A stretch of DNA of 52,115 nucleotides from an uncultured Pseudomonadota bacterium (GTDB taxonomy: Bacteria; Pseudomonadota; Alphaproteobacteria; Rs-D84): contig CACZUD010000005.1 of NCBI GenBank assembly GCA_902784345.1, positions 1-52,115 on the forward strand. Reading direction: 5' to 3'. This document shows, piece by piece, positions 976 to 52,060 of the stretch. A program made the position numbers and the translations under genes. How positions within the stretch are numbered: the first letter of the stretch is position 1; each line of letters begins with the position of its first letter. A model generated the notes under the pieces. It made no database searches and was not told the DNA's origin. It saw only the letters and a program-made list of their open reading frames with translations.

Positions 976-1590
976 TTATGCGCCACCGACCCCGAACACC
1001 GCTCGACGAAAGCCGGGGCGGCTCCGGACGCGGTCGCCGCAGGCGACCGCACAGCCAGACGCGCACGAAGACGCCGAACTGCGGTCGATGCTGAACACCC
1101 ACGCCAAGGACGATGACATATTTGTAGTACTGCCATTAAAGGTTGCACTGGTCCCCTTGCACCAGCAATATCGCGTCGTTCCGCTGGTAGATGGACTGGT
1201 CTTCTTTGTACAATGCCCTTCTTGCCAACAAGAATTCGTGTTAGCGGTTGCACTGGTCGATGAACAACGCCACGACCCAGTTAATGTCCCGTAATTTCCA
1301 GTCGCTGTCCATGTCGCCGCACCTGTACCAGTGGAGGTCGGTGTATAACTCGTGAACGGAAAATATATCATCTGTTTCCAATTTTCGGGCGAGGTCAGTT
1401 GTTTCCAGCCCTTGAACGTATAACCATTTTTCGTTGGGGCACCTTGCGTCGGCATGGTCACATTATCGCCAGTAGTACAACTTGTGTATGCATAAAAAGT
1501 ATCTTCATCCAGTATCCAGTTTACCTGTTCTGTTGCACCATATGCAGTGCAGACCATCATCGCAAATAAAAATGCTAATAATTTTTTCAT
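976..1590 (-). CDS. Secreted protein with InlB-type repeat motif (204 aa)
   Basis: Signal peptide at residues 1-18 (hydrophobic run ending TAYG). Around residues 55-64 is NGYTFKGW, the hallmark of Listeria-Bacteroides (InlB B-like, Flg_new) repeats found in surface proteins. The centre is Thr/Ser-rich with several Cys (CSSTSATANTNSC, HCTKK, YCWCKG) that may form disulphides, and the end has another Cys cluster (CASGCAVAC) followed by a basic FRRAVFGVGG tail. A good Shine-Dalgarno (GGGGGACAGGA) precedes the ATG. The last roughly 100 bases are strikingly GC-rich compared with the rest of the gene, so the C-terminus may have been replaced by recombination. The leader upstream carries an attenuator-like set of alternative hairpins. 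Surface location is inferred; no function can be assigned. Confidence 0.75.
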   Translation of the reverse strand: MKKLLAFLFAMMVCTAYGATEQVNWILDEDTFYAYTSCTTGDNVTMPTQGAPTKNGYTFKGWKQLTSPENWKQMIYFPFTSYTPTSTGTGAATWTATGNYGTLTGSWRCSSTSATANTNSCWQEGHCTKKTSPSTSGTTRYCWCKGTSATFNGSTTNMSSSLAWVFSIDRSSASSCASGCAVACGDRVRSRPGFRRAVFGVGGA

Positions 1591-48644: not shown

Positions 48645-48690
48645 ACCACAAATTTAGCAAATTTTTTATTTTTGTGCCAATAAAAAACAT

Positions 48691-48719
48691 TTGCTAAACG
48701 GTATAAAATTTGATATAAT
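48691..48719 (+). promoter_or_regulatory. Promoter of LRR surface gene leader
   Basis: TTGCTA (48691-48696), 17 bp, TATAAT (48714-48719); start near 48726. Confidence 0.8.
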
Positions 48720-48736
48720 TCAAGGAACAGGAAAAA

Positions 48737-48784
48737 ATGACCGAATGTTGCAGAAATCTAGAAAGAGAAAGAGTAATCTTATAA
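48737..48784 (+). CDS. Possible 15-codon leader peptide
   Basis: ATG 48737 follows ACAGGAAAAA and encodes MTECCRNLERERVIL, then stop. It has a TGT-TGC Cys pair and three AGA Arg codons. It lies between a strong promoter and two hairpins, the second a terminator, as in attenuation leaders. Translation is unproven. Confidence 0.45.
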   Translation: MTECCRNLERERVIL

Positions 48785-48791
48785 GCAAATT

Positions 48792-48815
48792 TTGTGCGAA
48801 CGCAAGTTCGCACAA
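48792..48815 (+). promoter_or_regulatory. Leader hairpin with GCAA tetraloop
   Basis: Perfect ten-pair stem TTGTGCGAAC/GTTCGCACAA closed by a GNRA-type GCAA loop. No T-run, so not a terminator; perhaps a pausing or protein-binding hairpin before the terminator. Confidence 0.65.
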
Positions 48816-48822
48816 TTTAAGA

Positions 48823-48863
48823 AAAATCGACAGATAACGCATCGCGTTATCTGTCGATTTTTT
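48823..48863 (+). terminator. Leader terminator before LRR surface gene
   Basis: Eighteen-pair perfect stem AAAATCGACAGATAACGC/GCGTTATCTGTCGATTTT with T-run, only 24 bp before the surface-protein ATG. Transcription would mostly stop here, producing a 135-nt RNA, unless antitermination occurs. Confidence 0.85.
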
Positions 48864-48886
48864 GTTTTATAACGGAAGCGAAGGGA

Positions 48887-51800
48887 ATGAAAAAATTATT
48901 AACATTTTTATTTGCGGCATTTTTCGCCGTTCCTGTATTTGCTGCGTGTACTTCGGGTCAAATCGATGTTACGGGTAACGGTTCAAATTGTCAAACTGCT
49001 CATTTTTCTGTTGGCACCACATCAACGAACACTTTTAAATTCACAATGTCTGCAATCGGGACATTTTATGTCGATTGCGGGAATGGCGGAACATTAACCA
49101 GTGATGCAAGTGACGTAACAAATAATACCACAATTTCGCGTTCCGGAACAACTGTGGCGACATATACGTGTACATGGGGAACATCGAGAGCACAAACAAT
49201 TCGATTTGGTGGAACCGCAACGGGATATTCAACGAACGTAGCCAACGCGGCGATTGCATTTTATATATTTTCCGTCGGAACACAGGCAAAGATTTCAACA
49301 ATTTCCGGAAATTTATCCGCAATGTTTCCATATAAATCGGGTGTTTCCGCAACCGGTGCACAACCAAGGTTTTATCAAACTTTTTATGGTGCAACCGGTC
49401 TGAGATCTATCCCGAGCACTTTATTTGCAAATTATACAACCGGTGCAAGTTATATGTTCTACTACACATTTTATAAATGCACAGGATTAACATCGCTACC
49501 GGCAAATTTATTTGCAAAAGTTACAACCAGTGCAACTAGTATGTTCAGTGGAACATTCAGGGAAACATCAATAACATCGATACCGGAAAACCTGTTTTTC
49601 CCGAACGCAACATCGGTAACCGGACAAAAATCTATGTTCAGCTACACATTTTATGGTTGCAAAGGATTAACATCGATACCGGCGAATTTATTTGCTAAGG
49701 TTACAAGCGCTGGACAACATATGTTCAGCTACACATTTAGTGGTTGCACTGGTATCACCGGATATATTCCAAAATCAACATTTGCCGGATTAATTGCAAA
49801 TGGTTCACCAACCGCAAATTATATGTGGCTGGACACATTTGCGAATACACAATTGGTGTCGTCATGTCCATCCGGAACAACAACAATCGATACAACATAC
49901 AAAGGCACCAACCAATCCAGCGATTATTATGTTAAATGGGGTAATTATGCAATGTGTGAAGGGCCAAGCTTCACAATTACCACCACATCAACAAACACTT
50001 TTAAATTCACAATGTCTGCAAAGGGAACTTTTTACGTCGATTGCGGAAACGGTGGAACACTGACCAGCACGGCAAACGATGTAATAAATAATACCATTAC
50101 GCGTTCTACAACGACGGTGGCGACATATACGTGTACATGGGGAACGGCGGGAGCACAAACAATTCAATTTGGTGGAACCGCAACGGGATATTCAACGGGC
50201 ACAACTACCGCGGCAATTTCATTTTATATATCGTCCGGCGGAACACAGGCAAATATCGCATCAATTTCTGGGAATTTGTCCACAATGTTTCCATATATAT
50301 CGGGTAATGCCGCAACCGGCGCACAACCAAGGTTTTATCAAACTTTTTATGGTGCAACCAGCCTGACATCAATACCGGACACATTATTTGCAAATTATAC
50401 GATGGGGGCAACTTCTATGTTCAGCAGCACATTCAGTGGATGCACAGGATTAACATCAATACCGGAAAACCTGTTTTTTCCAAATGCGACATCGGTAACG
50501 GGACAAGGTTATATGTTCCAACAAACATTTTATAATTGCAAAGGATTAACATCAATACCGGCGAATTTATTTGCTAAGGTTACAAGTGGTGCAACTTATA
50601 TGTTCTATCAAACATTTCAAAACTGTACAGGATTAACATCAATACCGGAAAACCTGTTTTTTCCGAACGCAACATCGGTAACCGGACAAAATTCTATGTT
50701 CTACTCCACATTTTATGGTTGCAAAGGATTAACATCGATACCGGCGAATTTATTTGCTAAGGTTACAAGTGGTGCAACTTATATGTTCTATCAAACATTT
50801 CAAAACTGTACAGCCTTAACATCAATACCTGAAAACCTGTTTTTCCCGAATGCGACATCGGTGACCGGACAAAGTTATATGTTCTACTCCACATTTTCTG
50901 GTTGCAGTGGATTAACAACTATACCAGCAAACCTGTTTTTCCCGAATGCGACATCGGTGACCGGACAAAGTTATATGTTCTCCTACACATTTTCTGGTTG
51001 CAGTGGATTAACAACTATACCGACGAATTTATTTGCTAAAATTACGACCAGTGCAACTTATCTTTTTCAAGGTGTGTTTTATAACTGTGGTGGATTAACA
51101 TCAATACCGGAAAACCTGTTTTTCCCGAATGCGACATCGGTATCGGGACAAACTTATATGTTTGCATATGCATTTACCAGTTGCGGAAAACTAACATCGA
51201 TACCGGAAAATTTATTTGCTAATGTTACAAGTGGTGCAACTTATATGTTCTACTCCACATTTAATAACTGCACAGGATTAACATCAATACCGGAAAACCT
51301 GTTTTTCCCGAATGCGACATCAGTGACCGGACAAAATAATATGTTTAATAACACATTTAGTAGTTGTACAAGTCTAACATATATACCAGAAAAATTATTT
51401 TCCAAGATTACAAGTGCCGCATCAAATTTATTTTACGCTACATTTTCTGGCTGTACAAAAATTACCGGATATATTCCCAAATCAACATTTGCGGGTTTAA
51501 TTGCAAATGGTTCACCAACAGCAAACTATATGTGGCAAAATACGTTTACGAATACAAAATTGGTATCGTCATGTCCATCCGGAACAACAACAATCGATAC
51601 AACATACAAAGGCACCAATCAATCCAGCGATTATTATGTTAAATGGGGGAATTATGCCATGTGTGAAGGGGATGCTGGCTTGGATTGCTCCGCTGGTTAT
51701 TATCTGCCCGCAAATGCGAATGCGTGTTCAATTTGTCCGATAAATAATATTTGTTCTGGTGGAACTTATACCCCCGGTGCAAATAATCAGGGTATAACCG

Positions 51801-52060
51801 CGTGTGCAAGTGGAACATTCGCGCCAACCGGTTCAACCGTATGTTATCCGCATCTTTTTCATGTTGGGAACGATAAAATTTATATGAATTCGACCAAGCA
51901 AACAACGCCATCGTTAAACTTTCGAATTGGCAATGATGTATTCTTCATAAATATGACAACAACACGAACAAAGATGAACAAAGATTCGGACCATTATTTT
52001 CATGTGGATTGGGGTAACAATCATTACTATGTCTGTGATGATACCACATGTCCACAGTAA
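48887..52060 (+). CDS. Giant BspA-like LRR surface protein (1057 aa)
   Basis: Signal peptide (1-19). Two beta-rich modules (about 41-150 and 358-468; shared words FKFTMSA, GTFYVDCGNGGTLTS) each precede a set of short Leu-rich repeats of the BspA/DUF285 type (LTSIPENLF, then a 15-20 residue spacer with MF..TF..C). Set one has about 4 repeats, set two about 12. Each set is closed by ITGYIPKSTF and a WGNYAMCEG cap. A Cys-rich module (928-988) and a C-terminal domain ending TTCPQ follow, nearly identical to the 212-aa protein at 56-694. Probably a surface adhesin or mucus-binding protein. Internal DNA repeats are near identical, so length is likely variable. The Shine-Dalgarno GGAAG is 8 bp from the ATG. 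Confidence 0.85.
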   Translation: MKKLLTFLFAAFFAVPVFAACTSGQIDVTGNGSNCQTAHFSVGTTSTNTFKFTMSAIGTFYVDCGNGGTLTSDASDVTNNTTISRSGTTVATYTCTWGTSRAQTIRFGGTATGYSTNVANAAIAFYIFSVGTQAKISTISGNLSAMFPYKSGVSATGAQPRFYQTFYGATGLRSIPSTLFANYTTGASYMFYYTFYKCTGLTSLPANLFAKVTTSATSMFSGTFRETSITSIPENLFFPNATSVTGQKSMFSYTFYGCKGLTSIPANLFAKVTSAGQHMFSYTFSGCTGITGYIPKSTFAGLIANGSPTANYMWLDTFANTQLVSSCPSGTTTIDTTYKGTNQSSDYYVKWGNYAMCEGPSFTITTTSTNTFKFTMSAKGTFYVDCGNGGTLTSTANDVINNTITRSTTTVATYTCTWGTAGAQTIQFGGTATGYSTGTTTAAISFYISSGGTQANIASISGNLSTMFPYISGNAATGAQPRFYQTFYGATSLTSIPDTLFANYTMGATSMFSSTFSGCTGLTSIPENLFFPNATSVTGQGYMFQQTFYNCKGLTSIPANLFAKVTSGATYMFYQTFQNCTGLTSIPENLFFPNATSVTGQNSMFYSTFYGCKGLTSIPANLFAKVTSGATYMFYQTFQNCTALTSIPENLFFPNATSVTGQSYMFYSTFSGCSGLTTIPANLFFPNATSVTGQSYMFSYTFSGCSGLTTIPTNLFAKITTSATYLFQGVFYNCGGLTSIPENLFFPNATSVSGQTYMFAYAFTSCGKLTSIPENLFANVTSGATYMFYSTFNNCTGLTSIPENLFFPNATSVTGQNNMFNNTFSSCTSLTYIPEKLFSKITSAASNLFYATFSGCTKITGYIPKSTFAGLIANGSPTANYMWQNTFTNTKLVSSCPSGTTTIDTTYKGTNQSSDYYVKWGNYAMCEGDAGLDCSAGYYLPANANACSICPINNICSGGTYTPGANNQGITACASGTFAPTGSTVCYPHLFHVGNDKIYMNSTKQTTPSLNFRIGNDVFFINMTTTRTKMNKDSDHYFHVDWGNNHYYVCDDTTCPQ
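50350..51450 (+). repeat. Near-identical 84-93 bp LRR-coding repeats
   Basis: About 12 tandem units alternate between two types, one encoding SIPENLFFPNATSVTGQ and one SIPANLFAKVTSGATYMF, with only few base changes between copies (for example 50455-50640 versus 50640-50825). A shorter set lies at 49400-49745. Strong substrate for slippage or recombination. Confidence 0.85.

Follow-up and report, generated by a model that had tools for sequence, protein, structure and literature searches.

A leader with an eroded dinucleotide repeat ahead of a PARCEL-repeat surface gene in an uncultured alphaproteobacterium: a probable attenuator of phase-variable descent

The locus

The window analyzed here is a stretch of 52,115 nucleotides from an uncultured alphaproteobacterium, whose lineage belongs to an order for which RF32 is a possible name. 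A gap of 242 nt separates the divergent recG from a gene of 1057 codons, and the leader of the latter lies within this gap. The features discussed below are as follows.

48644, minus strand: start codon of recG
48691 to 48719, plus strand: promoter-like site, TTGCTA-17-TATAAT, with TG ahead of the -10 and 10 of 12 matches
48737 to 48784, plus strand: leader ORF from the first start codon (ATG1), 15 codons, MTECCRNLERERVIL, stop TAA at 48782 to 48784
48745 to 48837, plus strand: leader ORF from the second start codon (ATG2), 30 codons, MLQKSRKRKSNLISKFCANASSHNLRKIDR, in another frame and overlapping the ATG1 ORF
48750 to 48760, plus strand: pre-repeat motif GCAGAAATCTA, which also precedes the repeats of 137 loci
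48760 to 48773, plus strand: eroded GA repeat AGAAAGAGAAAGAG, 12 of 14 positions agreeing with (AG)7
48792 to 48815, plus strand: hairpin hp1, ten pairs, GCAA loop
48821 to 48864, plus strand: putative intrinsic terminator (attenuator), 20 pairs including A-U and G-U pairs at the end, loop of 3, U tract
48887 to 52060, plus strand: surface gene downstream of the leader, 1057 aa, PARCEL repeats, signal-like N terminus

The product of the gene at 48887 to 52060 scores 102.9 bits against TIGR02167 (cut-off, 30), which places it among the PARCEL proteins, and as judged from these traits it is a secreted PARCEL-repeat surface protein. In the available text of the source (PMC2996958), PARCEL/TIGR02167 denotes repeats of surface proteins. 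The likeness of the window gene to that family lies in its above-cut-off score, and the family describes repeats of the protein, not the leader. Across the whole window, only two tRNAs exceed the gathering threshold of an Rfam family, and nothing does so at the leader.

Two further observations concern the surroundings of the leader and the other end of the contig. An inverted repeat of 20 nt (85%) at 48653 to 48698, a possible operator, overlaps the upstream region of recG as well as the leader promoter at its -35. At the far contig end, a second small gene for a secreted protein (976 to 1590, minus strand) has a near-identical start (MKKLLAFLF...).

Promoter, reading frames, and hairpins of the leader

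A first-pass annotation of this DNA had proposed a promoter, a 15-codon ORF with a Cys-Cys pair and three Arg codons, a ten-pair hairpin with a GCAA loop, and a terminator, and had read the whole as attenuation architecture on a surface protein. The first three are present at the positions listed above. The promoter call is weak when taken alone, because 4 promoter-like sites were found per 500 nt scanned and 1.9 are expected from shuffles. Its -10 region, 21 nt in length (CGGTATAAAATTTGATATAAT), is identical in the leader of the related genome G002. The attenuation proposal depended on there being no second promoter between the terminator and the ATG of the surface gene, and the promoter scan found no sigma-70-like site on the plus strand there.

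The terminator itself had been given 18 pairs and a spacing of 24 bp. The strong stem was recovered, and its dimensions were revised to 20 pairs, end pairs included, with 23 nt from its end to the ATG at 48887. Folding of 48785 to 48866 yields -43.5 kcal/mol (z -9.95), and the whole 171-nt leader gives a z of -6.4, neither being equaled by any of 200 shuffles. An antiterminator pairing between hp1 and the terminator, sought by folding only, was not found; the two hairpins coexist in both the optimum and the centroid structure. The terminator lies between a leader ORF and the gene, and the initial reading of an attenuation arrangement ahead of a surface-protein gene is supported.

Ribosomes could enter the leader at either of two start codons. 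In the alignment, the leader start of G002 corresponds to ATG1, which has an SD-like AAGGA; the end of the stop codon of the ATG1 ORF lies 37 nt ahead of the terminator core (48822). The ORF from ATG2 crosses hp1 and stops at 48835 to 48837, inside the 5' arm of the terminator; ATG2 is spaced worse than ATG1, and the aligned G002 leader contains no ATG2.

Both ORFs run through the eroded GA tract, whose likeness to (AG)7 at that single place has a chance of about 1e-5 or less. G002 has an intact (GA)9 where the window has this tract. What is left in the window amounts to slightly more than two copies of the 6-nt pattern AGAAAG, which, in our reading, would be a poor slippage substrate and would stay in frame on the gain or loss of a 6-nt unit. 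In the genome of the window, the motif with up to 3 mismatches occurs at 6 places (1 in a reversed control), and the motif together with a GA-like tract is found at the window place (L280) only.

Related leaders and conserved pairing

The window leader resembles that of G002 over its full length (72%), and the G002 leader precedes a different secreted-protein gene. The leader of G030 aligns with it in part and has (CA)13 at the place of the repeat, and in both G002 and G030 the repeat comes directly after GCAGAAATCTA or GCAGTTTTCTA. Leaders related in sequence and structure, with long CA or GA repeats within the leader ORF, are present in G002, G030, G184, G033, G001, and G176.

The pairs of hp1 and the terminator are preserved among related leaders despite two-sided changes, as compared by folding in eight stretches, of which the L087 and L157 excerpts end without a complete terminator. 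Within hp1, C-G is replaced by T-A at pairs 1 and 5 and T-A by C-G at pair 7; pair 8 of the terminator is G-C in the window and A-T in G002. The loop of hp1 varies, being GCAA in the window and GGAT, TGTT, GAA, or TGT among the relatives. As hp1 is missing from the G160 and G080 groups, it cannot be essential, and our guess is that it serves as a pause or auxiliary hairpin.

A covariance model of hp1 and the terminator found matches in 12 of 183 genomes at an E value of 0.001 or better; none of those 183 yielded a further close counterpart of the window leader that is free of a repeat. A related terminator and gene are present in G161 (L349) with no repeat, and by eye the leader ORF there passes straight through the terminator. 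Matches in G020, G079, G118, and G127 were rejected as resembling ordinary terminators or gene ends, and one in G199 (L352) looked different from the remaining leaders.

Motif and repeat across the family

The leader ORFs of the family carry a long (CA)n or (GA)n directly after a conserved GAAACCCGCAGAAAnCTA. This anchored pattern of motif and repeat occurs in 46 of 183 family genomes, with zero occurrences in a reversed-pattern control, and long tracts of the CA/GA type occur in 49 of 190 genomes sampled in the order. Up to 14 motif-repeat loci are found per genome (G158), and since many arrays sit at contig ends, the locus counts are lower bounds. The named records with motif and repeat (54 stretches) are MAGs of rumen, gut, or termite origin, labeled Alphaproteobacteria, uncultured proteobacterium, or Rickettsiales. 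Repeat length differs between loci, with one assembly representing each species.

From about 140 stretches, 137 distinct loci were obtained, and 128 entries, the window included, have at least 60 nt past the repeat. At many loci (type I), the ORF that crosses the repeat continues as the gene itself. A "type I with hairpin" class comprises 19 of the 128 entries, 17 of them with a common hairpin of about 11 to 12 pairs and a U-rich end within the reading frame; the other two, L089 and L206, are of a different kind. A terminator is located past the repeat and ahead of, or near, the end of the long frame in 34 of the 128 entries (30 type II, including the window, and 4 unclear), the type II class being set by our own terminator thresholds. 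The type-II-like layout is a repeat, often hp1, a terminator, and then a new gene, and eight terminator-bearing loci are present in G001 by itself. L183 and L186 were dismissed as false type II loci, the motif there being reversed relative to the gene.

The gene behind the repeat-bearing leader encodes a secreted protein at 20 of 32 loci by a crude test, with four more narrowly under the cut-off; the ORF that follows has no signal-like start at L084, L141, L169, and L190. The first-pass annotation had suggested looking for conservation of the hairpins and the mini-ORF ahead of other surface genes. The pairing of hp1 and the terminator and a repeat-bearing leader ORF do recur before secreted-protein genes, but the Cys pair (1 of 32) and the GCAA loop do not.

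Among type I genes, those at L116 to L126, L108 to L110, and L158 to L162 share the in-frame hairpin AAAACAAATCGGGACGATTTGTTTT (by eye, KQIGTIC) right behind the repeat, which is possibly a terminator that works only when out of frame.

Frame geometry and predicted states

At 28 of 29 terminator-bearing loci, a single post-repeat frame extends as far as the terminator and both others end at least 15 nt short of it, a set from which L110, L132, and L167 are omitted (type-I-like; tandem hairpin units; terminator not cleanly called). The stop of the long frame lies at or inside the stem, from -12 to +21 nt relative to its start, at 24 of the 29. Shuffled spacers yield the one-long-frame property in 14 to 56% of cases per locus. 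For a stricter form, in which both other stops fall no more than 20 nt from the repeat, the joint chance is about 2e-5 with seven sequence groups taken as independent and 1e-4 once the group of the window and the G001/G176 group are merged. Those two groups look related, and because sequence groups B and C look related, the independent loci are fewer than counted.

The one exception to the rule is L196, where two frames reach the terminator, and the long frame passes beyond the stem at L141, L168, L197, and L199. At the G160 loci and in G002, G030, G181, and G184, the long-frame stop overlaps the stem base (offset -1); at most loci of G001 and G176, it falls within the 5' arm, 13 nt in. A 33-nt duplication in L136, a multiple of three, leaves the long frame open with its stop still at +13.

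In the window, the first stops fall 0, 8, and 61 nt past the repeat and the terminator core at 48 nt; at most G001/G176 loci, the values are 2, 15, and 61 nt, with the terminator likewise at 48. ATG1 leads to the 8-nt stop and ATG2 into the 61-nt frame. By this geometry, the 15-codon ORF noticed initially is the short (predicted OFF) frame, not the frame that could act on the terminator, and the 30-codon ORF from ATG2 is the long frame.

When each locus is read from its best-scoring start codon, a heuristic under which several starts have no SD-like match, 7 type II loci are predicted to be ON and 21 OFF, the 4 unclear loci are all OFF, and type I loci with hairpin are 3 ON and 14 OFF (L089 and L206 excluded). 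Such a mix would fit random frames, not a fixed reading frame.

A translation-coupled attenuator and its alternatives

We consider it probable, if well short of certain, that this leader attenuates transcription in a manner coupled to translation and that it descends from a phase-variable attenuator. The reading is built on what the sequences contain, namely the parts, the frame geometry, the repeats of the relatives, and the conserved pairing, and from these we infer leader translation, a working terminator, slippage, and a role of hp1 as a pause or helper hairpin. In the relatives, RNA polymerase would start at the leader promoter and ribosomes would start on the leader ORF with its CA or GA repeat, slippage of which would fix the frame. 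For two of the three possibilities, the ribosome would halt soon past the repeat, the terminator would fold, and the surface gene would be mostly off. In the third frame, the ribosome would cross hp1 and halt on reaching the 5' terminator arm or within it; the terminator would then be kept from folding, and the surface gene would be transcribed. In the window, the impure repeat would leave the frame nearly frozen, with low expression predicted from the short frame of ATG1 and partial relief from the long frame of ATG2. The window is as such predicted to hold a slippage-locked, mostly attenuated copy, at which switching is not expected now.

Phase or nutrient control had been suggested at the outset, and the two halves of that suggestion fare differently. 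The phase half is supported by the CA/GA repeats in the leaders of the relatives. The nutrient half corresponds to classical amino acid attenuation, by which scarce charged Cys- or Arg-tRNA would stall the ribosome on the 15-codon ORF and refold hp1 and the terminator. Such a device would display what is present here, a short ORF with a Cys-Cys pair and three Arg codons followed by two hairpins, but the folding gave no antiterminator pairing, the Cys pair precedes the repeat in only the window among 32 listed leader ORFs, the Arg codons follow from the GA repeat (which spells ERER), and the controlled gene encodes a surface protein rather than a Cys or Arg enzyme. Nutrient sensing via these codons is not supported, and we regard amino acid attenuation as very improbable. 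It is slightly less improbable, though still very unlikely, that the hairpins are ordinary intergenic terminators that insulate the divergent recG and surface genes, the latter being transcribed from another promoter. A strong terminator between divergent genes is in keeping with insulation; against it, the terminator faces the surface gene, no plus-strand promoter-like site lies past it, and this arrangement, with an ORF that bears a repeat, is seen again ahead of genes that the crude test scores as secreted in 20 of 32 cases.

Also unlikely, but deserving more weight than these, is a phase switch so decayed that its terminator only imposes a constant reduction of expression and translation no longer has an effect. 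The repeat is eroded, the ATG1 frame has an in-frame stop, and another damaged copy exists in G001 (L373), all of which fit a relic. Set against this are two intact hairpins, a promoter and SD-like site that have been kept, and a long frame from ATG2 that is still open. It had also been proposed that the terminated RNA acts on its own. Two stable hairpins and a terminator would indeed give a stable short RNA, but there is no Rfam match, and among paralogues the sequence varies except for its pairing while the place before surface genes stays; action in trans as a small regulatory RNA is, to us, scarcely credible.

Comparison with known systems

The closest counterpart is the pil1 pilus switch of Streptococcus gallolyticus, where, in the available portions of the report by Danne et al. 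in 2014 (PMC3894217), repeat slippage alters the length of a leader peptide and the ribosome blocks a terminator. The same portions describe mutants in which removal of the terminator raised expression and removal of the leader start lowered it, so that the pil1 mechanism was tested by mutation, and the pil3 case comes from variants. Expression there was also high with leader peptides whose ends fell inside the stem or past it, and in the low state the distance from the end to the hairpin is 39 bp according to the model figure and 49 bp according to the text (PMC3894217).

As far as those portions allow comparison, the likeness consists of a repeat in a leader-peptide ORF, a frame that ends tens of nt short of a premature intrinsic terminator, other frames that end just ahead of it or within it, and control of a surface structure. 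Frames that differ in their reach toward the terminator are found in the window; a simple repeat within the leader ORF is found at the related loci, the window having the eroded tract only. In S. gallolyticus, the repeat is a GCAGA pentanucleotide at two loci of a Gram-positive bacterium, whereas here CA/GA dinucleotides occur at many loci, preceded by a motif, often accompanied by an extra hairpin, and eroded in the window. Low expression there goes with the in-frame count and high expression with the two others, whereas one frame of three is long here.

A second comparison is offered by rph-pyrE of Escherichia coli, in which the position of the upstream ORF stop relative to the attenuator sets expression and the K-12 rph frameshift lowers pyrE, according to the available text of PMC2784333. 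By analogy, rph-pyrE may be viewed as a non-repeat relative of the principle proposed for the window leader. It differs, so far as that text covers it, in sensing pyrimidine supply through coupling, and its frameshift is a single laboratory-strain mutation with no repeat switch. The original studies of this attenuator are reportedly those of Bonekamp in 1984 and Jensen in 1993.

Simple-sequence-repeat contingency loci of Haemophilus, Neisseria, and Campylobacter have tracts in or before surface genes that alter the reading frame. The loci described here with an ORF running on into the gene are of the same kind. The terminator-bearing class differs, in that its repeat lies in a separate leader ORF and acts, as proposed, on transcription.

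Among publications judged by title and the start of the abstract, with subscription literature mostly outside the scope, no further repeat-gated leader-attenuation system besides that of S. gallolyticus was found. Likewise, the listings returned for phase variation or contingency loci in RF32, Alphaproteobacteria, or MAGs from rumen or termites contained nothing on these switches.

The importance of the analysis rests more on the leader family than on the window copy, which looks frozen. If the proposal is right, repeat-gated leader attenuation is not confined to a single streptococcus but has two or more origins, and these small-genome gut bacteria use it at several loci at once. Uncultured Alphaproteobacteria of animal guts would gain a phase-variable surface whose switch states could be read from metagenomes via repeat counts. 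The leaders would also form a natural series, in which the long-frame stop falls before, inside, or beyond the terminator and hp1 is present or missing, suited to measuring the control of termination by the position of the ribosome.

The motif and movement of the leaders

The pre-repeat motif is conserved at positions that the search left free. At the 137 loci, A is found at -16 in 133 and C at -12 in 121, and positions -7/-6 are AA in 116 and TT in 21, never mixed; the search pattern itself dictated positions -11, -10, -8, and -3 to -1, which are outside these bias counts. The reading frame of the motif differs by locus, giving HTHT after ...RRNL at some and YTHT after ...AVF or AET at others, and its conservation is therefore not for the peptide.

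A 4-nt core of the motif tends to be shared within genomes. In 19 genomes with at least 3 loci each (108 loci), the core agrees in 70% of pairs, compared with 20% after shuffling, and 0 of 2000 shuffles were as high. Many genomes are near-uniform, including all 10 loci of G080, all 11 of G158, and 9 of 10 in G001. Where the flanks of a pair are no more alike than shuffles, the core agrees in 40 of 69 pairs within genomes versus 153 of 1004 between them, the latter being a sample and 32 of the 40 agreements coming from G080 and G158. These patterns suggest that a cassette is copied between genes, rather than gene duplication alone, and the uniformity of the core points to conversion or a shared recognition site.

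More tentatively, and with less confidence than doubt, we propose that the members of this bacterial family switch surface genes throughout their genomes by means of a single type of cassette (a motif of 17 to 21 nt plus a dinucleotide repeat), which may spread by copying or conversion among unrelated genes of the same genome. The motif would be kept as DNA, possibly as a recognition or recombination site and not as coding sequence, and the cassette would switch either the translation of the gene itself or, with a terminator, transcription via a leader peptide. The window would then be a frozen example.

The neighborhood of recG bears on how the window leader came to its place. Among 15 loci with a recG at least 79% alike, 12 have a terminator and the end of a different gene, which resembles acetate kinase, at that position, so the window leader and its gene seem to be insertions beside recG. 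L290 (G094) and L297 (G160) have an inserted secreted-protein gene there, and L291 has no sequence at this place. The G160 locus (L087/L297, G160:C74, about 7470) contains an intact (CA)18 terminator-bearing leader and a secreted-protein gene at the same site as in the window, divergent from recG, with a different leader sequence. Could insertion beside recG have happened repeatedly?

Several single loci add to this picture of movable leaders. The G002 leader (L004 1501-1530, G002:C3), which lies away from recG, starts with TTTTTGTGCCAATAAAAAACATTTGC, matching the recG side of the window, and this stretch also resembles the upstream region of the recG of G002 itself, as though the cassette had come from a site next to recG. 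At L373 (G001:C8, about 56300), repeat, hp1, terminator, and gene stand directly behind the terminator of another gene, with neither the usual start of the motif nor a leader start codon; it appears to be a truncated, damaged cassette. In another genus (G113 and G123; L183 to L185, L188, and L221), the motif and GA repeat are reversed relative to the apparent gene start, which by eye reads ATGAARNATACAAAnCTACAAC(TC)n on the other strand, and the repeat seems to be used from the opposite side.
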